Origin: Gilvimarinus sp. DA14
Lineage (GTDB): Bacteria > Pseudomonadota > Gammaproteobacteria > Pseudomonadales > Cellvibrionaceae
Assembly (NCBI RefSeq): GCF_024204685.1
Contig: NZ_CP100350.1
Coordinates: 558,001-622,000 of the forward strand
Length of the DNA stretch: 64,000 bases
Direction: 5' to 3'
The position numbers and the translations under genes were made by a program. The notes under the pieces were generated by a model, which worked only from the letters and a program-made list of their open reading frames with translations, was not told the DNA's origin and made no database searches. Positions 6,212 through 44,378 of this stretch are shown one piece after another (the first letter of the stretch is position 1; each line of letters starts with the position of its first letter).

Positions 6212-9058
6212 ATGCCAACCAAGCCACACTTTAATCACTCAAAGCTCGGCCTACTGAGCCTGTTAATTGCCGGCTCTGCCACAACCATGGCACAAACTGC
6301 CAATAACGACACCGCGCAATCCAGCCAAGGCGCTGCCATTGAGGAGGTCGTTATTACCGGCTACCGAGGTAGCCTACTTAACTCCACCGCCGCAAAGCGC
6401 GACTCAGTGGGCTTCTCCGATGAAGTTTTCTCGGACGACATCGGTAAAATGCCCAGCCAGAACCTGGCAGAATCGTTAAGTCGTATCCCCGGCGTTAACA
6501 TTAACCGTGAAGTAACCGGCGAAGGTCAGCAGATTTCTGTGCGCGGCTTGGGCCCCTCTTTTACCAAAGTGGTGTTAAACGGTAATTCCATGTCCGTGGC
6601 CTCAATGGGTGACATGAACCAAAACGGCAGTGATGGTCGGCAGGTTAGCCTAGATATTTTTCCGCCCGAGCTGTTTAAAAGCTTAAGCGTGAATAAAACC
6701 GCAACCGCGCAGCAAATCGAAGGTGGTGTATCGGGTTACGTAAATATGAAAACCCTGAGACCTTCTGATTTGGGTGAAGGCCATACCTTCAATGTTGGCG
6801 TCGATGGTGTGTACAAAGAAGCGACCAGTTCAACCAGCCCTAAAGGTGCCCTCACCTACAGCTTTTCTAACGATACTTTTGGCGTGTTAACCAGCGTTGT
6901 CGCTCAGTCTAATGACCATGGTATTGACGGTTACGAGGTTATTGGCAACGTATTGCAAGGCGTTTGCCTGGGGGAACCTGGTACTAACGCCTGTGCTGAT
7001 GGCAGTGGCGATGGTCTGCGTTATTCCAATATTGCCACCCCCGATTACGCCGCTGCACACCCAGGCGTGAATGTAGGCGATGTGATTGATATCAGCGGCG
7101 AGCAAGCGACATATGATGCGATGCAGCTGCCGTACATTGGTCGTATGGTCTCCACCAACGGCAAAAAAGACAGTATTTCTGCGTTGGTTTCGCTTGAGTA
7201 CACGCCAAACGATGATATTACTGCCGCGCTGGATTTTTTAACCGCCGACACCGCGAACGAATACACGCGCGATGAGATTTCCCACTTTTATCGTCGCAAC
7301 TATGTGTACCAGCCCATTCCGTCTGACATAGTGCTGGACAGTAAAAACCAAGTGGTTTCAGGCACATTCTACGGCACATCGCCCTGGATTGGGTCCCAGG
7401 ACTACGACGAAGAAACCAGCTTTACCAGCATTATGCCGAGTGTTGACTGGCAAATTTCTGATGATTTCTCGATGGCCGCCTCGGCAAGTTTTACCGATTC
7501 AGAATTTTCACGCTACAACCCTTATGGGTTGATGTTTGGCGCCAACACCACTTTGGAATACGCCAATGACGGCATTGTGCCCTCGGTAAACTACGGCAGC
7601 ACTAACGACTACGCCAACTACACCACCCACGACGGCGAAGACCGTATTCGCGCCAGCCATACCGAGCGCGAGACTTCTACCACAGGCTTTCACGTTGATT
7701 TTGCGTACGGTGAAGATGCTGAGCGCAACGGGTTTAAATTTGGTATTCACCACGACCAAATGGAATCTACCCGTCAAACCTTCTTGCCTGTGTTTTCCAT
7801 GGAGTACGATGGCAATGCGGATGGTTCCGTCACCATGGCTGAGTACCTTGAAGGCTCGGGTGCAACGGCAGAGCTAACAAACAACATTCAAAATTATATT
7901 CGCACGGTTAATTTTGGTTCGAATATCGACGGCTGGGGCGGTGTACAAAGCTTTGGCGCGACTGACTGGTCCGCCATGAAAGATTTAATCGGCTTCGACC
8001 AGTGGCAGGAAGAGCAGCAAAACCTGACCAACATTGAAGAAGAAGTTACCGCTCTTTATTTAGAGTTTAATACTGAAACTGAAATTGGCGGTCGACTGCT
8101 GCGTACCAACAGTGGCGTACGCGCGGTAAAAACCGATCAATTTGTGGAAGACCAAACCGGTGCCACCAGTGAAAGTTATGATCGTGTTCTACCCTCATTC
8201 AGCGCGGTGTACGATTTAACCGACGACATTAAACTGCGTACCAGTGCATCGCGCAGTTTAACCCGCGCTAACCCCAGCGACATGTTCCCCGGGGCGCAGT
8301 GGGATGGATCGGGCATTGATGTAGTGCGTGTGGGTAACCCGGGCCTGGCGCCCTTTGAATCCACCAACTTGGATATCGGCGGCGAGTGGTACTTTAGCGA
8401 TATGGGTTACGTGGGCTTAACCTATTACACCAAAGATATCACCGGCTTTACTTACCAGGATACCATCTTGGAAAATCTGGATAACCTGGGCCAGTACGGT
8501 GTAGATTTAAGCGAGCTGACTCCAACTCAGCTTGAGGCCGAATCCATTTGCACACCTAACTGCACCGTACAAGTTATTACCCGTGTGAACAGTCGTGAAG
8601 CCAGTACACTTAAAGGCTTTGAATTGATCTGGGTACAGCCACTGGACTTTTTGGTGGAAGGTTTAGGTTTTAATGCCAGCGCCAACAAAATTGAAGATGA
8701 CTCGCCCGAAGGCGCCGAAATTACCGGCGTGTCTGATTCGTATAACCTGACCGGTTACTACGAAAATGATGTCTTTCAGGCGCGGGTTACACTCTACCAT
8801 CAAGAAGGCGCTGTGGCCTTTAACTCTTGGGGTCAGGATGTAGAAACCCGCGATCGCTCGCAGGTGGATGTATCGGCCAGTTACCGTTTGCCGGTAATGC
8901 AGGATAACGACCTGACGCTCACCTTTGACGCTTACAATGTTAACAACGAACCCTTGTCAACGCGCTTTGTGGGCGACGGTGTAGAGGAAGATTCACAGTC
9001 CTACAATGTGTATTACCCGGGCGCCACTTACACCATGGGTGTGCGCGCATCGTTTTAA
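6212..9058 (+). CDS. TonB-dependent outer membrane receptor (carbohydrate type)
   Basis: Outer membrane transporter of 948 residues. Its signal peptide ends near TMA|Q (residue 27/28), and a TonB-box-like IEEVVITG lies at residues 43-50. The plug domain has the DIGKMPSQNLAESLSRIPG and ISVRGLGPSFTKVVLNG patterns of the same subfamily as the receptor at 1357. The barrel ends in the canonical terminal Phe (VRASF), the signal for BAM insertion. GAGGA lies about 9 nt before the ATG. Only the general architecture is shared with the upstream receptor; they do not look like recent duplicates. The substrate is unknown, though nearby carbohydrate genes make a sugar plausible. An intrinsic terminator follows, and the next gene is convergent. 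Confidence 0.9.
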   Translation: MPTKPHFNHSKLGLLSLLIAGSATTMAQTANNDTAQSSQGAAIEEVVITGYRGSLLNSTAAKRDSVGFSDEVFSDDIGKMPSQNLAESLSRIPGVNINREVTGEGQQISVRGLGPSFTKVVLNGNSMSVASMGDMNQNGSDGRQVSLDIFPPELFKSLSVNKTATAQQIEGGVSGYVNMKTLRPSDLGEGHTFNVGVDGVYKEATSSTSPKGALTYSFSNDTFGVLTSVVAQSNDHGIDGYEVIGNVLQGVCLGEPGTNACADGSGDGLRYSNIATPDYAAAHPGVNVGDVIDISGEQATYDAMQLPYIGRMVSTNGKKDSISALVSLEYTPNDDITAALDFLTADTANEYTRDEISHFYRRNYVYQPIPSDIVLDSKNQVVSGTFYGTSPWIGSQDYDEETSFTSIMPSVDWQISDDFSMAASASFTDSEFSRYNPYGLMFGANTTLEYANDGIVPSVNYGSTNDYANYTTHDGEDRIRASHTERETSTTGFHVDFAYGEDAERNGFKFGIHHDQMESTRQTFLPVFSMEYDGNADGSVTMAEYLEGSGATAELTNNIQNYIRTVNFGSNIDGWGGVQSFGATDWSAMKDLIGFDQWQEEQQNLTNIEEEVTALYLEFNTETEIGGRLLRTNSGVRAVKTDQFVEDQTGATSESYDRVLPSFSAVYDLTDDIKLRTSASRSLTRANPSDMFPGAQWDGSGIDVVRVGNPGLAPFESTNLDIGGEWYFSDMGYVGLTYYTKDITGFTYQDTILENLDNLGQYGVDLSELTPTQLEAESICTPNCTVQVITRVNSREASTLKGFELIWVQPLDFLVEGLGFNASANKIEDDSPEGAEITGVSDSYNLTGYYENDVFQARVTLYHQEGAVAFNSWGQDVETRDRSQVDVSASYRLPVMQDNDLTLTFDAYNVNNEPLSTRFVGDGVEEDSQSYNVYYPGATYTMGVRASF

Positions 9059-37854: not shown

Positions 37855-38201
37855 TCTTCTTACGGAGCTCGGGTGATTAATTGATTACCCTTGCACCACA
37901 ATTCTTCTCTTTCAGAGGGAGTTTGCTTAGACATACAATGGTTGTTCAATTATCGAGAATAAGTCTGTTCACATTAAATTTAGCAACGGTATTAATGGCT
38001 GTATAACATATCGCCCCGTAGTCAGTGAGTGTCCCCAAGTTGTGGGTTAGATAGCCGTCCATACCCGATTAGGCGCCACCGAGGCTACCCCACGTTAGCA
38101 CTGCGACCGCTGCCAAGGCGACCCAACCAGGGTGCCGACCACAGGTCCCGATGAAGGCGAACGTTGCACCACCCAAAATCAACGACTCTGACCCCATTGA
38201 T

Positions 38202-38492
38202 CCCAAGCAAAAGCAGTCTGGAACATCGATCAATGGGCGAAGTAGCCTGTCACGCACTGGGCATAATGCTGCGAGGAAAGCTCTTTTTATGCCCGGCATG
38301 GTTGCCAAGCGCTTCAACCCCGTCATCATTGCAGCATCAAGAAGGATTGAGGCAAGAGGGCTGACTCCTAAAGCGATTATTGGCGTCAGCATGAGGAAGC
38401 TGGTTCACATGATCTACGGTGTCGTGAAGTCAGGAACCCATTTTAATGCGAAAATTCCACTTTCAGGTCTTGATCTTCAAAAGGGTATCTGA
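38202..38492 (+). pseudogene. IS110-family transposase, C-terminal remnant
   Basis: In the plus frame ending at the stop at 38492 the sequence reads the C-terminal part of an IS110/IS1111 transposase (Transposase_20 domain): PKQKQSGTSINGRSSLSR, then G-H-N-A-A-R-K-A-L-F-M-P, R-F-N-P-V-I, and V-S-M-R-K-L-V-H-M-I-Y-G-V-V-K-S-G. The N-terminal DEDD domain is absent; sequence before about 38202 no longer matches in this frame. It is a dead fragment. Some IS110-family (IS1111-attC) elements insert specifically into attC sites, and a candidate attC lies 70 bp away, at 38562-38619. Confidence 0.75.
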
Positions 38493-38561
38493 CCCGATTG
38501 ATCGCCTTTTGGCAAGCCCCGATTTTAGCAAAAAACGCCTTGTTTTTAGAGTTTTTCTACA

Positions 38562-38619
38562 GCCTCAACGCCACAAGAACCGGCGGTGCGACCATCCGAT
38601 TGCTTTTCTTGTTATATGC
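38562..38619 (-). repeat. attC-like recombination site after REase-TPR cassette
   Basis: Read on the minus strand it begins GCATATAACAAGAA and ends TTCTTGTGGCGTTGAGG. The ACAAGAA and TTCTTGT boxes are exact complements (7 bp), and the inner CGG...CCG parts can also pair. The outer core GTTGAGG differs at the last base from the GTTRRRY rule. It starts 27 bp after the stop codon at 38647. Confidence 0.5.
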
Positions 38620-38646
38620 TTTTTAGATTCAACGTTCATGGCCATA

Positions 38647-40044
38647 TTAATTTCCTAGGCCCTCTAGGTTTGTTTTTATTAAACCAAAGACCATATGATC
38701 ATCACTTAATGATTGAGAAAAACAATTACGGGCATCCTGGAAATTATTAATAGCCTTGTTTTTTTGTCCAACCGCCTGATGATATAGTCCTAGGTGATAG
38801 AGGATGTTTCCTTTGGCCTCAAGATCAAAAGTATAATTGTCTGCCACTCTAAGCATTGCAGGCTCTATTGATGAGAGCGCGTCATGTTCATCATATAAGT
38901 CCAGTAAATCCTGGCAAACCGTCGGATTTCTTGGGGCTAGTTCGAAGAAATCATCGACGGCTTTATCTAGCTTGGCCTCAGCTGCATTTGATATAAGACT
39001 CAGCTCAATATTTCCCTTTAGTGCCCCATAACTCGTTGGTAATATTTCAATACTTTTATTAAACTTTTCCTCTGCCTGCTCATACTCTTTAAGCCTCATT
39101 AATGTTTTGCCCTGCTCAATTAATATCTCGGCCTTTTCCACTTGGTCCTCGCTATTGGCTAAGTGATAGTCAAGTTCACTTAGCCTAGCCCGACTTACAC
39201 TATCAGTATCAACATTGAAAGGCAGGGCTCTAGATATTATGTGCTGGAGCTTCTTAATGTTTTTTTCTCTAAGTTCTTCAGGAGTAAAGAGAACGCAGAA
39301 AAATATAGACTCCCCAAAATCTATAAAGCCAGTGTATTCTACTGTTGGGTATTCCTCTATTTCTATTGTTCTTAGTAATGTCTTGTACTTCTCTCTCTTG
39401 ACGGTCTTTTGATAATTAATTTTTGCCTTTGGAAAATTCTTCAGCGTTTCAGACTCATGTAATGCTATGAATGAATCTAAATCACATATTTCCTCATTCT
39501 TACTGAAAATATTTAGATACATCCATTCATTTCGATTTCCGGCCTCTTCAAATGTAAGGCCTCGCTGATAAAGAGTTGCTAGAACGCCATCTCTTCTCTC
39601 TGCATCAATGACCCAGCCGAAAGGTGCAGGCAATATAACACCATGCCTTCCGCTATAAGGAAGCGCTCCGAATCCTTGAAATCGCTTTAGCTCATCAAAA
39701 TTTAGAATGTCGAGCTCAACACGTGAAGGGTCATTATGGGCTCTAGCTATTGCAGCTTTTGAATATCCCTTTTGAGCAACTAGCAGGCCTTTATCTGCAC
39801 CTACGTCTTGCATCATGCCTATAAAAGACTCTACTTCTTTTACATCGATAACTTCCGAAAAAAACTTTGCGTCCACCATTATTCTAATATTTTCGCCGGC
39901 AACAAAATCTTCTACCAGCATATCTATCTGTCTATCTACCTTTGAATATCTCCCTCGAACTTTGGCATCATGGGTGATATCAGCATCAGGATACATTTCC
40001 TGAAACTGCTGATGTATTTCCTTTTCATAGTCTTTCCAATTCAC
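38647..40044 (-). CDS. Restriction-endonuclease-like domain fused to TPR repeats
   Basis: Protein of 465 residues starting at GTG. Residues 1-130 form a PD-(D/E)XK fold of the Mrr/restriction-endonuclease-like type: D41 in RQID, the D58-A-K60 catalytic pair, then Q-D-V-G-A-D-K-G-L-L-V-A-Q-K-G-Y-S-K-A-A. The middle (~150-310) is unassigned. Residues about 310-465 form tetratricopeptide-like helical repeats (for example AEILIEQGKTLMRLKEYEQAEEKFNKSIEILP). A nuclease joined to a protein-interaction scaffold fits an anti-phage or anti-plasmid effector, and it sits in a candidate gene cassette followed by an attC-like site. No methyltransferase is adjacent, so it is not a classical restriction-modification pair. 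Confidence 0.75.
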   Translation of the reverse strand: MNWKDYEKEIHQQFQEMYPDADITHDAKVRGRYSKVDRQIDMLVEDFVAGENIRIMVDAKFFSEVIDVKEVESFIGMMQDVGADKGLLVAQKGYSKAAIARAHNDPSRVELDILNFDELKRFQGFGALPYSGRHGVILPAPFGWVIDAERRDGVLATLYQRGLTFEEAGNRNEWMYLNIFSKNEEICDLDSFIALHESETLKNFPKAKINYQKTVKREKYKTLLRTIEIEEYPTVEYTGFIDFGESIFFCVLFTPEELREKNIKKLQHIISRALPFNVDTDSVSRARLSELDYHLANSEDQVEKAEILIEQGKTLMRLKEYEQAEEKFNKSIEILPTSYGALKGNIELSLISNAAEAKLDKAVDDFFELAPRNPTVCQDLLDLYDEHDALSSIEPAMLRVADNYTFDLEAKGNILYHLGLYHQAVGQKNKAINNFQDARNCFSQSLSDDHMVFGLIKTNLEGLGN

Positions 40045-40153
40045 CTGAGGTTATTCCTATTCCTACTGATGCTTTTTACGTGCCATTTTGGACACCTCCA
40101 TATAGGGCAAATATAACTATACAGGGTGTCTACTTTTTATGGGTAACTTGGGT

Positions 40154-40225
40154 GCATAACGCCACGCTCTGCGGAAAATTTGTAGCGCAGCGTAACATTT
40201 GTCCAGCAGCATCGCCTTGTTAAAC
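40154..40225 (-). repeat. attC-like recombination site after the oxygenase cassette
   Basis: On the minus strand it begins GTTTAACAAGGCGATGC (core GTTTAAC fits RYYYAAC), 2 nt after the oxygenase stop codon, and ends GAGCGTGGCGTTATGC. The outer TAAC/GTTA boxes pair, and the inner GCTGCTGGA and CCGCAGAGCG segments partly pair. The 72-bp length is normal for attC. The TAACAAGGCG...GGCGTTATGC frame is typical of gammaproteobacterial chromosomal-integron sites. Confidence 0.65.
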
Positions 40226-40227
40226 GA

Positions 40228-40782
40228 TTACTGGCAATTGTATCGAGCGCTAATCGTAACTCTTGTTTCTTTACATGGTCTTTGCGGAACTCCAGCTCGA
40301 TGATAAATATTGGCGTGAAACAAGACTAGCCTGCCGGGTTTAACTGAAACGCATACCTTTGAATCCTTACTTGAATCAAAGAAAATAATTTCTCCACCCC
40401 AATCATGATGCCAATAACTATTTACAAAATATAGCGCAGAAATGACATCTGGATTCTCACAATCTTGATGAGTGAACGTATTACAGCCAAAGCGTAAATA
40501 ATTTCCTAGCACCTTGTAACATACATATCGTTTGCCAAAAGCCTCAGAGATAGAATTCAAAATTGATTTCCCAAGATTCGTTAAAGAGAAATCCTTCTCC
40601 TCTAAATCAAACATGATTTCTCTAAACTTATTAGACTTTTCATTTGAGCAGCCAAGTATTGATACATCCGCCCTAATTAAGGCCTGATGAAGGTTTTCAA
40701 CTTTATCCGTATCAGCTAATACATCAAAGATAAAAATATTACCGTCATCTATTGAATGCTTGCTTACTAACTTATGCTTCAT
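40228..40782 (-). CDS. 2-oxoglutarate/Fe(II)-dependent oxygenase, second paralogue
   Basis: Protein of 184 residues. The iron-binding facial triad is visible as H105-x-D107 (THQD) and H161 (IYHRAG), and R174 in ETRVTISAR would hold 2-oxoglutarate, the prolyl-4-hydroxylase-like pattern. The core HDWGGEIIFFD...VKPGRLVLF is shared with the neighbour at 40772-41362, so the two are paralogues with divergent N-terminal halves. The start overlaps the end of the upstream paralogue by 11 bp, indicating translational coupling. Probable protein or peptide hydroxylase; the substrate is unknown. Confidence 0.85.
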   Translation of the reverse strand: MKHKLVSKHSIDDGNIFIFDVLADTDKVENLHQALIRADVSILGCSNEKSNKFREIMFDLEEKDFSLTNLGKSILNSISEAFGKRYVCYKVLGNYLRFGCNTFTHQDCENPDVISALYFVNSYWHHDWGGEIIFFDSSKDSKVCVSVKPGRLVLFHANIYHRAGVPQRPCKETRVTISARYNCQ

Positions 40783-41362
40783 TCCAACAGAACCTCAGAT
40801 TAAGTGTTACTCGCATTTCTGGGCATGTTCGAAGAGGCAATCCAGGTCTATGAAGAGTATCATTCATAAACGCCACAACTCTACCTGGCTTCGGGCTGAC
40901 TGTGATTTTGGCTTCATATTCTTCATCAAAAAATAGCAGTTCACCTCCCCAATTAGAGTCCCATTCAGTGTTTAAAAAACATAACATCGAAATTCCTTTT
41001 CCACTTTTGCGCTCATCCCTATGTGTAAAAGTAGCGTCTCCATACTGGAAGGCATTGCAAAACCCCCTTTCAAGCCAAACATCTTCGCAGCTGCATATTT
41101 CTTGAGCTATTTTTTTAAAAGTTGGATAAAGAGAGTGCTCTTTAAAGTCTTCAACATCTAGCTCAAACTGCAAATAGTCGCAAGGAACATCTCCTGCCAG
41201 CTTATGTAGCTTTTGATCATTTATTCTCCATGCTTTGTATGGAGCAGCAGTCAAAGCTAGTGAAAGTTTAGAAAAGGATTCATAATCAATAGCTCCATCA
41301 ACAACCAAAACAGGGTTGTTGATGGAAATTGAGTCATTCCTTTCGACTATCTCAATACTCAT
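40772..41362 (-). CDS. 2-oxoglutarate/Fe(II)-dependent oxygenase, first paralogue
   Basis: Protein of 196 residues with the same fold as its neighbour: H114-x-D116 (THRD), distal H171 (TLHRPG) and R184 (EMRVTL). The NWGGELLFFDEEYEAKITVSPKPGRVV segment is the double-stranded beta-helix core of prolyl-hydroxylase-like enzymes. It begins 6 bp after the unrecognised gene at 41369-41872 and overlaps the second oxygenase by 11 bp. All three appear to lie in one gene cassette, which suggests that they act together, perhaps with the 41369 product as substrate or carrier. That idea is inference. Confidence 0.85.
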   Translation of the reverse strand: MSIEIVERNDSISINNPVLVVDGAIDYESFSKLSLALTAAPYKAWRINDQKLHKLAGDVPCDYLQFELDVEDFKEHSLYPTFKKIAQEICSCEDVWLERGFCNAFQYGDATFTHRDERKSGKGISMLCFLNTEWDSNWGGELLFFDEEYEAKITVSPKPGRVVAFMNDTLHRPGLPLRTCPEMRVTLNLRFCWNEA

Positions 41363-41368
41363 GCCTAG

Positions 41369-41872
41369 TTAAAACCCTGAGTCTTTCATTTTCTTTAAGA
41401 GTTGAATGGGTTCTAAACCACCATTACCAAGCTTTGATACGGCATCTTCGAGAGCGGATAATTTCTGAGTGGATACATCTAGTTTTTTGCTAGCAGAAGT
41501 TGAATCTAATGCAACAATTCTTGAGTTTAAGACAATTTGGTCACGCCCTATAACATGAATAGCTACATGAGTAATACCATCATCCAATTCAATGTCTTTT
41601 AGAGCCCAAGAGACTGGCCTTCCCTGAAAATCCGAAGGCGATTCAATACTACCAACCATTTTGAGAGGCAGAGTGATATGGATTACATTATCGGATTCCA
41701 TGGTGATAGTGCTAGGGGTTGAAACCTTCGCTTTATCCGCCTGATATAGTGCGTTTGGGACGAAAGCAAAGGCAGATATATCAATACCTTTATTACCTGG
41801 AAGTAACGATCCTTGCGGTTGGAAAAACGGAACGAAATTTCCTTCACTACCTAATTGATCTTCATTGTTCAT
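41369..41872 (-). CDS. Unrecognised protein, first gene of the oxygenase cassette
   Basis: Protein of 167 residues from the ATG at 41872, which has AAAGGAGAT 6 nt upstream and lies 46 nt after the preceding attC-like site. An in-frame start 14 codons upstream lacks this. I do not recognise the family. There is no signal peptide or membrane segment. The N-terminal 35 residues are Gly/Pro/Phe-rich (FVPFFQPQGSLLPGNKG). The middle looks like a beta-sandwich (HITLPLKMVGSI and THVAIHVIGRDQIVLNSRIVAL), and the C-terminus is helical. It is co-transcribed with two 2-oxoglutarate oxygenases, and several Pro and Asn/Asp residues could be hydroxylation targets. Confidence 0.75.
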   Translation of the reverse strand: MNNEDQLGSEGNFVPFFQPQGSLLPGNKGIDISAFAFVPNALYQADKAKVSTPSTITMESDNVIHITLPLKMVGSIESPSDFQGRPVSWALKDIELDDGITHVAIHVIGRDQIVLNSRIVALDSTSASKKLDVSTQKLSALEDAVSKLGNGGLEPIQLLKKMKDSGF

Positions 41873-41918
41873 GTTTATATCTCCTTTTAGTTTCATAGGT
41901 GGTCGATAAATCATGACC

Positions 41919-41981
41919 GTTTAACGCCCTTCAACAACGGCGCCGGCTCAGCCGGCGTCCGATTGCTTGAAATTGTTACGT
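41919..41981 (-). repeat. attC-like recombination site after the GIY-YIG cassette
   Basis: Best-formed of the candidate sites. On the minus strand it begins ACGTAACAATTTCAAGC, with the gene's own TAA stop inside the core, and ends GTTGAAGGGCGTTAAAC (GTTRRRY satisfied). TAAC pairs with GTTA and TTCAA with TTGAA, and the centre is the palindrome GACGCCGGC-tga-GCCGGCGCC. Its 63-bp length, the order of boxes and the terminal core are those of a classical integron attC. Confidence 0.75.
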
Positions 41982-42680
41982 GTTGACGGGCACAAACTCA
42001 TGTTCTATTAAATCAATTATGGAGGCCACAGTTACAGTGCTTATGCTCAAAACTTTTGCGCCTCCCTTTTTTCCTTGCTCCACATCAAATCCGTGGTTTT
42101 CAAGGAACTCCTTGATGTCTTCGTAGACGTCTTTACTGCGACCAATAGATAGATGGTGCTTACCGGACTTCCTAGCATTTACATAGTATGTGAGCTGCTT
42201 TTCATCACTGAAAAATGTTGGTCCGGCAATACGCGAACTTGACCTCAACGGCTTAGAGAGAAAGTCTAAAATTTCACCAAGTAATATGTGGTCAGTCTTT
42301 TGCTTGCTCTCCACTTCTTTTTGCATAACGCTCTTTGTATAGGGATCATTACTCTGCTCGATGGGCACTTCTCTGGCACCGATAAGATTCATAATCGGAT
42401 GCATGCGTTCTACCAGTGAGTCATCTCGGTCCACAAACCACTCACCTTCGATGCGACTATCATCCAGCAGCATATGCAGAGCAGTCTCAACTGCTCTGGC
42501 ATCACTATGCTCCCAGGCAGCAATGCACTGAGCCTTTATTGGCGACTTGGTATTGCTGATCTGTTGCAACCGAGAACTAAGAGTTGCATTCCCTGCTCCA
42601 GTAACACCCACCTTCTTATATGGAATGTCAACATTGCCGCCAATATCTATGTGGCGCATTACGTAGATGATATTCTGCAT
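41976..42680 (-). CDS. GIY-YIG nuclease-like protein (T5orf172/MUG113 type)
   Basis: Protein of 234 residues. The N-terminal ~95 residues have the T5orf172 pattern: IIYVM then Y-K-K-V-G-V-T-G, L-x-x-R-L-Q-Q-I-S-N-T, a conserved Glu in A-V-E-T-A-L-H and the closing G-E-W-F. These correspond to GIY-YIG strand motifs, helix Arg and metal-binding Glu. The C-terminal ~90 residues form a separate mixed alpha/beta domain (YYVNARKSGKHHLSIGRSKDV...) that I do not recognise. Such proteins are common in phages and defence islands. The stop codon lies inside an attC-like site, as expected for a cassette gene. Confidence 0.72.
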   Translation of the reverse strand: MQNIIYVMRHIDIGGNVDIPYKKVGVTGAGNATLSSRLQQISNTKSPIKAQCIAAWEHSDARAVETALHMLLDDSRIEGEWFVDRDDSLVERMHPIMNLIGAREVPIEQSNDPYTKSVMQKEVESKQKTDHILLGEILDFLSKPLRSSSRIAGPTFFSDEKQLTYYVNARKSGKHHLSIGRSKDVYEDIKEFLENHGFDVEQGKKGGAKVLSISTVTVASIIDLIEHEFVPVNT

Positions 42681-42844
42681 TACTTAAAAGTTACTCCAAT
42701 TTCGCAGAAACACGTAACATTTGTAGATCGCGCATGCGCGTTATCATTCCCTGAAACAGAATTAGGAATTGTACGCAGGCTTATGATTTATAAACTATTT
42801 AACCAATTTCTTGGACTTGGGAAGGAGAGGCAAAGTGAGCTTGC

Positions 42845-42872
42845 GCATAACGCCCAACACCGGCCTTATTAT
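42845..42872 (-). repeat. Partial attC-like end ahead of the first cassette
   Basis: On the minus strand this reads ...GGTGTTGGGCGTTATGC, the L'-R' half of an attC ending in GTTATGC, exactly as in the site at 40154. The matching R''-L'' half may be ACTTAACCAAC near 43030-43040, which would make the site ~195 bp long or interrupted by inserted sequence. Confidence 0.4.
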
Positions 42873-43202
42873 CTGTCAGGCTGTTGCAAAGCTACCTACG
42901 TTGCCGCTGCGGCGTTAAAAATAGCTTCAAACTGCTCATTTACTAAATGTAAACTCCGCGTTTTCACCGATTTTTGCCTTGCATCGGCTGCCTCGCCTAC
43001 GTTTTTCAACGGCCTGTTCACCTTCCCAGTTGGTTAAGTGTCTGACTATAAACGTTTTTTAAATTAATGAAAACCGCAAAGCGAGCCAGCTTTGCAGGCA
43101 ATACGTGCACTTTAGGCGGTAGCGGTCAAATATACCTGTATAAAAAGTCGCGCCTTAAAGGTGAGATAGAAAACCTCAGCCAACTACGAAGCACCGCTCT
43201 TA
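42873..43202. other. Intergenic stretch with hairpin-rich repeat-like sequence
   Basis: 330 bp without a supported gene. From about 42873 to 43020 it has several hairpins: CCGAT/ATCGG around 42967-42987, and GCCGCTGCGGC near 42903. The sequence resembles dispersed intergenic repeats of marine gammaproteobacteria that run between a 'GGCTGTTGCAAAG' end and a 'CGCCTACGTTTT' end. No second copy lies in this window, so the assignment is tentative. Confidence 0.35.
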
Positions 43203-43416
43203 GAATCCCCTGCATCCAGCCGAGCGAAGGCCTATTTTAGGGCGGTAAGTATGCATGGACGCGTACGCAAGCATCGCCACGCCAGGGACGGCGTGTCGAT
43301 GCAGCCCCCTAAAATCGGCCGTAGCGAGGGCACCCAACGGGCTGAATGCCGGGGTGGGCTTTCTTTTCGTTAGTTTTCTTTGCCCAAACAAAGAAAAGTG
43401 ACTCGCCCGCCCGGCG
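43203..43416 (-). repeat. Island-flanking ~210-bp repeat, right copy (inverted)
   Basis: Reverse-complement partner of 33975-34185, with long shared blocks and scattered differences. An apparent 76-codon minus-strand ORF (43200-43430) lies wholly inside it and is an artefact of the repeat. The copy ends about 110 bp before the DUF815 gene, the first core gene to the right of the island. Confidence 0.85.
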
Positions 43417-43526: not shown

Positions 43527-44378
43527 CTAAACCCCCGCTCCCCCCACATAATCCCTAGCAAACTGCCAAGCCACCCTGCCGCTCCGCGACCCACGGGTCA
43601 TACTCCAACGCAAAGCCGCCGCACGAACCTCATCACTCCACTGCCCGCCTAAGTACTCCACCCAATACTCACAGGCGGCAAAGTACTCGTCCTGGCGAAA
43701 CGGATAAAAAGTGAGCAAAAGTCCAAAACGCTCCGACAGCGATGTTTTCTCTTCCATGCTGTCGCCGGGGCGAATTTCTCCGTCCACCTGCTCGGTTTCC
43801 AGGTTATCGCTCATTTTGTGGGGCAGCAAATGGCGGCGGTTACTGGTGGCGTAAAACAGGATATTGTCACCCGGAGCGCGGATAGAGCCATCCAGAGCTG
43901 ACTTGAGGGCCTTGTAGTGGTGCTCGCCCTCTTCGAACGATAAGTCATCGCAAAACACAATAAAGCGTTCGGGCCGTTTTGCCAAAATAGTCAGTAGCTG
44001 GCCCAGGTCTTTTAAGTCTGGCTTGTCGATTTCAATCAGCTTGATGGCGTTTTTGTGCTGATACCAGCAGGCTTTAATCAGCGTGGATTTACCCGTGCCC
44101 CGCGAGCCGGTTAGGAGAATATTATTGGCGGGTTTACCCGCTGCATACTGGGCGGTGTTACGCAAGATGGCTTGTTTCTGCCGGTCGACGTTTTGCAGCG
44201 CATCGAGGGGAATATGGTGCGGGTTGTCGACGGCTTCCAGGTAGCCACCGCGGGGATGAGAGCACCAGTAGAAGGCGTCGGCATCCCACTGGGTTTGTGG
44301 TGGCAGTGGCGGAATAAAGTGATCCAGGCGATCCAGCAGACGATCAACTTTGGATAAAACATCGGACAACTCGGCCAT
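43527..44378 (-). CDS. DUF815 family AAA+ ATPase
   Basis: Protein of 283 residues. An N-terminal ~75-residue region (W-D-A-D-A-F-Y-W-C...) precedes an AAA+ core with Walker A GSRGTGKST, Walker B R-F-I-V-F-C-D-D-L-S-F and the sensor-1 Asn in YATSNRRHLLP. This matches DUF815, a widespread family of unknown cellular role. GGAG precedes the ATG. The neighbouring response regulator gene is divergent and 132 bp separate the starts. Confidence 0.88.
   Translation of the reverse strand: MAELSDVLSKVDRLLDRLDHFIPPLPPQTQWDADAFYWCSHPRGGYLEAVDNPHHIPLDALQNVDRQKQAILRNTAQYAAGKPANNILLTGSRGTGKSTLIKACWYQHKNAIKLIEIDKPDLKDLGQLLTILAKRPERFIVFCDDLSFEEGEHHYKALKSALDGSIRAPGDNILFYATSNRRHLLPHKMSDNLETEQVDGEIRPGDSMEEKTSLSERFGLLLTFYPFRQDEYFAACEYWVEYLGGQWSDEVRAAALRWSMTRGSRSGRVAWQFARDYVGGAGV

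Follow-up and report, generated by a model that had tools for sequence, protein, structure and literature searches.

The 64-kb stretch of the Gilvimarinus sp. DA14 genome analysed here (referred to as the window; the genome is a single contig of 3.96 Mb) contains an array of three gene cassettes that is very probably an integron platform without an integrase: an attI site followed by the cassettes, where the attI belongs to a family of dispersed sites cognate to one clade of integron integrases (IntI). The features that point to this can be read from the sequence, and are three attC sites, an attI core, an integration mark at the first cassette, the lack of any IntI above cut-off and the presence of dispersed copies of the site. 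Together the core, the mark, the dispersed copies and the varied cassettes found behind them argue for an integrase-less platform that is one of a dispersed set. A preliminary description of this DNA had proposed an orphan cassette array, or cluster of attC sites lacking an integrase (CALIN). The array is indeed integrase-less and thus a CALIN by definition, although it is headed by an attI and is not a bare attC cluster.

The array spans 38563-41981, and its three attC sites, all on the minus strand, end three cassettes carrying five genes (Table 1). The sites had been proposed from their palindromes, with a covariance test suggested, and all three were detected by two models that contain no window sequence: a two-arm profile, for which 128 attC sites close to IntI genes of relatives served as training set, and a covariance model built from 11 short attC sites of relatives (29.6-33.1 bits), among which 8 of 13 base pairs are altered on both sides. 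The next match in the 64 kb scores 13.6 bits (E 0.92) with the covariance model and 15.4 with the profile; in 30 simulated 64-kb strands the profile gave one match of at least 20, and that one was above 30. The window sites fit the R''-L''-L'-R' pairing with its extrahelical base, with one model pair unpaired in attC2 and one in attC3. Two of the three fall under the training sites' 5% point (33.0) in profile score and are therefore atypical members; attC2 shares 85-88% identity with attC sites of two other Gilvimarinus genomes, G296 and G294. No attC match was obtained in this stretch with Rfam. The AT-richness noted previously was also observed, with a G+C content of 0.38-0.44 at 39-43 kb versus 0.48-0.61 outside 37-43 kb of the window.

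The layout of the array differs from that first proposed, which comprised four genes plus one further unit, a leading boundary at 42851 and a fourth palindrome close to it. The three cassettes hold five genes, three of them in a single cassette, and the first cassette begins at 42717. The palindrome near 42851 sits in the attI region and lacks an attC partner half. Two interpretations of it were rejected, that the GCGTTA here marks a fourth attC and that a miniature inverted-repeat transposable element (MITE) splits an attC, as an alignment of 15 copies shows this to be attI region; the GCGTTA falls in a segment that varies among the copies and occurs in four of them. Across the whole genome the covariance model gave at least ten matches at E up to 0.5, including one of 56.7 bits at 8470-8526. 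This number is a lower bound, with 150 of 2438 candidates scored, and a single attC at 2.36 Mb (profile 32.0) is missing from the list, which is therefore incomplete.

The attI unit and its solitary copies

Judged by sequence, the array is led by an attI site and the region upstream of it, without intI. The core stands beside the first cassette and is common to copies linked to intI: similar cores (26-30 of 31 letters) adjoin intI genes in Cellvibrio, Shewanella and Enterovibrio, and in genome G090 a similar end (25 of 31 letters) lies ~310 bp from its intI. It is followed by the integration mark, defined as the four bases after GTT pairing with the R'' of the first cassette's own attC; here the junction GTTACGT is complementary to the R'' ACGTAAC of attC1. 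When the region upstream of cassette 1 was compared with the strain's own acnA locus, its own 8-kb locus and the orthologous DUF815 locus of G294, homology stopped at the same GTTA in every case. Most of the 15 aligned Gilvimarinus copies have a common unit of ~250 bp ending GATAACGCGCATGCGCGATATACAAATG/TTA, and TTTATAGTCA was found by eye in 12 of them; in copies G294_1087k and G298_C13 the upstream part has diverged or suffered partial deletion.

The core contains the perfect palindrome GCGCATGCGC, as might a promoter or a regulator-binding site of cassette arrays that takes no part in recombination. This explanation is very improbable, as in four loci, including an orthologous pair, homology does not extend past GTTA, the bases that follow pair with R'', and the motif occupies the attI position beside intI. 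The upstream region does hold a promoter-like match (TTTTCA-17-TATAGT, with the -10 TATAGT at 43050-43045), one such match being found versus 1.1 expected by chance. A promoter in the attI region would express the first cassette, a GIY-YIG-like gene.

Copies of the motif were sought in other genomes at several levels. An exact scan of an 84,980-species collection gave 46 stretches, 45 titled gammaproteobacterial and one titled only Proteobacteria. Allowing up to three mismatches, 55 copies were found in 24 of 144 genomes of the family, where a reversed control pattern had no match. By coordinates 10 of these 55 adjoin an IntI and 45 do not, in a search at E 1e-70 which short intI remains would escape. 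Fourteen genomes picked for having the motif carry 38 copies, one to five each, and the control pattern was again empty. Seventy-three copies were retained that end in GTTA or GTTG, match at 23 or more of 31 positions and have repeats removed (those excluded include L048, at a contig end, and L130, with no GTTA). Sixty of the 73 have no IntI match in the surrounding stretch (E 1e-3, frames of 80 aa or more) and are called solitary here; upstream DNA is at least 510 nt for all of them and at least 1.3 kb for 30.

An attC lies downstream in the right orientation in 32 of the 60 solitary copies, and 23 of these 32 carry the integration mark (all seven letters in 22), whereas four-letter shuffles gave a mean of 1.94 and a maximum of 7 (n=2000). 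The mark is present in 11 of the 13 solitary copies that have both a downstream attC and at least 1.3 kb of upstream DNA. In a further ten copies (30 loci minus 20 already counted) it was found in five of the six with an attC; two of the ten have an IntI match, neither being among those five. The sites are also polar. Within 3 kb downstream of the 60 solitary copies the array strand carries 48 attC sites and the opposite strand one (147 kb), and within 3 kb upstream there is one (107 kb).

Integrases also integrate cassettes outside att sites, according to the available text of PMC12444791, and the cassettes could have been inserted at chromosomal attG-type sites, with the common 31 bp a coincidence or a preferred target. 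We give this a very small chance: the core and up to ~250 bp upstream of it are common within the genus, and intI-linked copies differ little from the core, whereas an attG is 'not attI or attC in sequence'.

The genome of DA14 has further solitary copies. One at its acnA locus (named by NCBIfam) is followed by one cassette, its attC and an insertion sequence (IS), with no intI. Another at 8 kb (L096, 1-14000) leads a PIN_8 gene, and one at 2.04 Mb (L137, 2036001-2041000) leads HATPase_c_3, pentapeptide and nucleotidyltransferase genes, with no attC over threshold.

The DUF815 site occupied by the array was compared within the genus. It is empty in G295, where DUF815 is directly followed by the next shared gene, and it is filled with other genes in G294 and G296. 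In G294 (L189) an attI unit 89% identical to that of the window is found at the same position, and its first cassette, a HEPN-domain gene, also has the integration mark and differs from that of the window; a PDC-M49A candidate defence gene lies further along this array. The G296 locus (L061) has seven attC sites. Conservation of the array's gene order without the palindromes, named in the preliminary description as counter-evidence, was not found among the seven genus mates, in which the DUF815 locus is without these genes. The DA14 8-kb attI and a G298 attI at 172 kb are likewise orthologous sites with different genes behind them, no attC being detected at the latter. Cassette content has therefore changed at inherited solitary sites, either by an integrase acting in trans or by exchange before intI was lost.

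Integron integrases and the probable loading of the sites in trans

The absence of intI, first noted for the window, extends to the whole genome, in which no IntI exceeds the TIGR02249 cut-off; the intI of a complete integron is thus lacking. Six sub-cut-off matches fall in genes that we read as XerC-, XerD- and phage-like recombinases. An IntI above cut-off is present in six of the eight genus genomes and in 127 of 293 genomes of the order.

Thirteen of the 73 motif copies have, 127-434 nt upstream, the end of an IntI-like frame that points away from them. Nine motif-linked IntI, those that could be placed and which were chosen for having the motif, form one clade (clade A, support 100/99) among the 53 in the tree. 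Clade A is apart from the IntI of the Gilvimarinus acnA locus, and is joined next by a second G294 IntI (L070), which has a long branch. Among genomes of the family, 10 of the 11 that encode a clade-A IntI have the motif versus 14 of the 133 others (Fisher p 2.5e-8), where clade A was called at 63% or more identity to the G090 IntI, a line drawn after seeing the list, with two partial sequences and related genomes among the data. Other intI-linked arrays of the family have different attI sequences. The first-cassette rule located the attI in 14 of 15 intI-linked arrays with an attC in reach, 18 having been examined.

An integron integrase that the present genome does not encode would have inserted the cassettes at this attI; it may since have been lost, or it may have acted in trans, encoded at another locus or on a transient mobile element. 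We infer that loading in trans is likely.

A less probable explanation, which nevertheless has to be taken seriously, is that every solitary attI derives from an old integron, once complete, that lost intI in place, the cassettes being left over and nothing acting in trans. It would account for the acnA locus, where five genus genomes have intI and DA14 has a solitary attI. The solitary copy G293_C30 also retains a CTG-N10-CAG box, presumably a LexA box, like that of the linked copy L144 (alignments, by eye). It accords less well with the lack of any IntI match at E 1e-3 (frames of at least 80 aa) around all 60 solitary copies, with the several copies at different loci of one genome, and with orthologous sites that differ in their first cassette, both members of the DUF815 pair being marked.

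It is also conceivable, at rather long odds, that the attI unit spreads as a small mobile element, self-copying or copied by a transposase, which would be compatible with a dispersed integrase-less platform. Eight solitary Shewanella copies (L172, L174, L176, L180, L185, L187, L190 and L198) have much of a ~250-bp upstream unit in common that is missing from two intI-linked copies aligned with them (L204 and L210), and eight of the 14 genomes chosen for having the motif hold three to five copies. Against mobility, no terminal repeats or target duplications were identified, no systematic search having been made, and some copies are orthologous between species and therefore inherited.

Several observations weigh against the reading of the array as a platform loaded from a dispersed attI family. 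The mark is missing in 9 of the 32 solitary copies with a downstream attC, and in 28 of the 60 no attC was detected downstream, including the DA14 2.04-Mb and G298 172-kb copies; such copies may be empty, decayed or not functional. For 30 of the 60 less than 1.3 kb of upstream DNA was available, and for 10 less than 0.7 kb, and the search covered frames of at least 80 aa. No motif copy (up to three mismatches) is present anywhere in G296 despite its array at DUF815, and therefore not every array at this locus needs this attI. Within the window, the start of cassette 3 (GTTATGC) agrees with the R'' complement (GTTATAT) at only five of seven positions. Finally, no clade-A IntI was found in the genus Gilvimarinus (best match 47% identity), and the cognate enzyme is therefore missing from the eight genomes searched.

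Genes of the array and neighbouring elements

Two of the five genes could plausibly have a defence role on the basis of the candidate families that they match. The GIY-YIG-like protein of cassette 1 matches the PADLOC candidate family PDC-S57 (5.4e-9), and its two Pfam matches (PF13455 and PF10544) are what we take to be GIY-YIG-type domains; the Mrr-like protein of cassette 3 matches candidate family PDC-S02 (9.8e-8). In cassette 2 an orphan protein precedes two paralogous 2-oxoglutarate (2OG)-Fe(II) oxygenases, and we would guess that it could be their substrate. At the limits used it matched no family in Pfam (0.08 at best), NCBIfam, PHROGs or PADLOC, and neither plasmids nor any of the order's 293 genomes apart from its own gave a match. 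A PADLOC 2OG model labelled CRISPR-associated was also matched, and a literature search for FlmC found no paper.

Table 1. Features of the array and its surroundings (window coordinates)
Feature	Position	Strand	Remarks
IS110-family transposase remnant	38151..38492	+	outside array; PF02371 over cut-off, NF033542 below its cut-off
IS end, 59 bp	38502..38560		abuts R' box of attC3; longer copy in L094
attC3	38563..38617	-	covariance model 32.3 bits, E 2.5e-5; two-arm profile 32.4
Cassette 3	38569..40159	-	limits are attC2 and attC3
Mrr-type restriction endonuclease domain + TPR protein, 465 aa	38647..40044	-	cassette 3; PF04471 6.5e-10, PF07719 2.6e-10
attC2	40154..40225	-	covariance model 29.6 bits, E 1.1e-4; two-arm profile 38.6
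Cassette 2, three genes and one attC	40160..41924	-	start GTTAAAC complementary to R'' GTTTAAC of attC2
2OG-Fe(II) oxygenase, overlapping preceding gene	40228..40782	-	cassette 2; PF13640 9.2e-8; NF052475 2.9e-28, below its cut-off
2OG-Fe(II) oxygenase	40772..41362	-	cassette 2; PF13640 9.4e-11; FlmC model NF052475 4.1e-25, below its cut-off
Orphan protein, 181 aa at most	41369..41914	-	cassette 2; no family matched
attC1	41919..41981	-	covariance model 33.1 bits, E 1.6e-5; two-arm profile 26.9
Cassette 1	41925..42717	-	limits are attI crossover and attC1
GIY-YIG-like protein (MUG113 / T5orf172), 234 aa	41976..42680	-	cassette 1; PF13455 2.3e-8, PF10544 1.4e-6
attI core, 31 bp	42715..42745	-	crossover between 42718 (G) and 42717 (T)
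attI unit (limit on the upstream side approximate)	42715..43160	-	15 Gilvimarinus copies aligned; interrupted by MITE-like element
MITE-like insertion, imperfect terminal repeats CAGGCYGTTG	42877..43016		missing in 13 of 15 aligned attI units
DUF815 gene, conserved, chromosomal anchor	43527..44378	-	found in 8 of 8 genus genomes

The 59-bp IS end beside attC3 lies directly against an attC at other loci as well, in L094 (8093-9424), L085 (4338-4408 and 7442-7512) and L086 (9631-9701), and it adjoins the R' box in all five full-length copies; there are two shorter matches in G295 besides. The L094 copy encodes a DUF772-type transposase (PF05598), and this IS behaves as though it targets attC. 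The MITE-like element (~140 bp) has two full copies in the genome, both within attI units, the second (G000, 6899-7048) being 95% identical to the first. A TwoAYGGAY RNA (RF01731) is predicted at 43198-43362 on the plus strand beside DUF815 (44.8 bits against a gathering threshold of 43), and also adjoins DUF815 in G294 and G298. The stretch 34028-34206 matches the same DNA of relatives as the TwoAYGGAY region does, in the opposite orientation.

Relation to known systems

CALINs, and single attC sites without an integron integrase (SALINs), are described from Shewanella, where there are many of both (PMC9229058), and from Xanthomonas, where CALINs are confined to a few loci as opposed to scattered attG integration (PMC12444791). 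As far as the available text of these sources goes, the array resembles them in that its cassettes are bounded by attC, lack an intI and lie apart from a resident integron, and the recurrent loci of Xanthomonas offer a further likeness. It differs in the recognisable attI before the first cassette, which is not in the CALIN definition and is unmentioned for such sites in what we have of the two accounts. A complete sedentary chromosomal integron (intI-attI-array) likewise has an attI with upstream region and oriented cassettes, whereas here there is no intI at the locus or over cut-off in the genome, and several attI are found per genome. The attG integration outlined in the accessible part of PMC12444791 also puts cassettes outside the intI locus, but attG is a loose consensus and the attI here is conserved. 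Delta-attI cassettes of mobile integrons, in the portion of PMC12901181 available, again involve an attI other than the one beside its integrase; there, however, attI pieces form the recombination site of resistance cassettes, and here a chromosomal attI lies upstream of an array. The finding is thus a variant of the integron, with dispersed attI lacking intI and bearing an array, rather than a system of a new kind. Among the matches listed in the open-licence PMC literature, no paper was found that describes dispersed attI sites, and none of those holding the motif letters is on integrons by title.

The attI family offers a specific explanation of how cassette arrays without an integrase arise and why the same loci recur among them. 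Its 25-31 bp motif can serve as a finder of such arrays and makes integration in trans at a solitary attI testable. We see about an even chance that many gammaproteobacterial genomes carry a network of integrase-detached attI docking sites at fixed loci, each with its own promoter region, where an integrase, resident or visiting, inserts cassettes in trans. If so, these outposts would have been missed because attI is unannotated outside class 1, the class to which attI detection by IntegronFinder is limited in the available text of PMC9024848. Numerous CALINs and orphan cassettes that stand singly would in that case be working outposts of integrons and not debris, intI alone would be no measure of the integron capacity of a genome, and a genome lacking intI could still gain cassettes.

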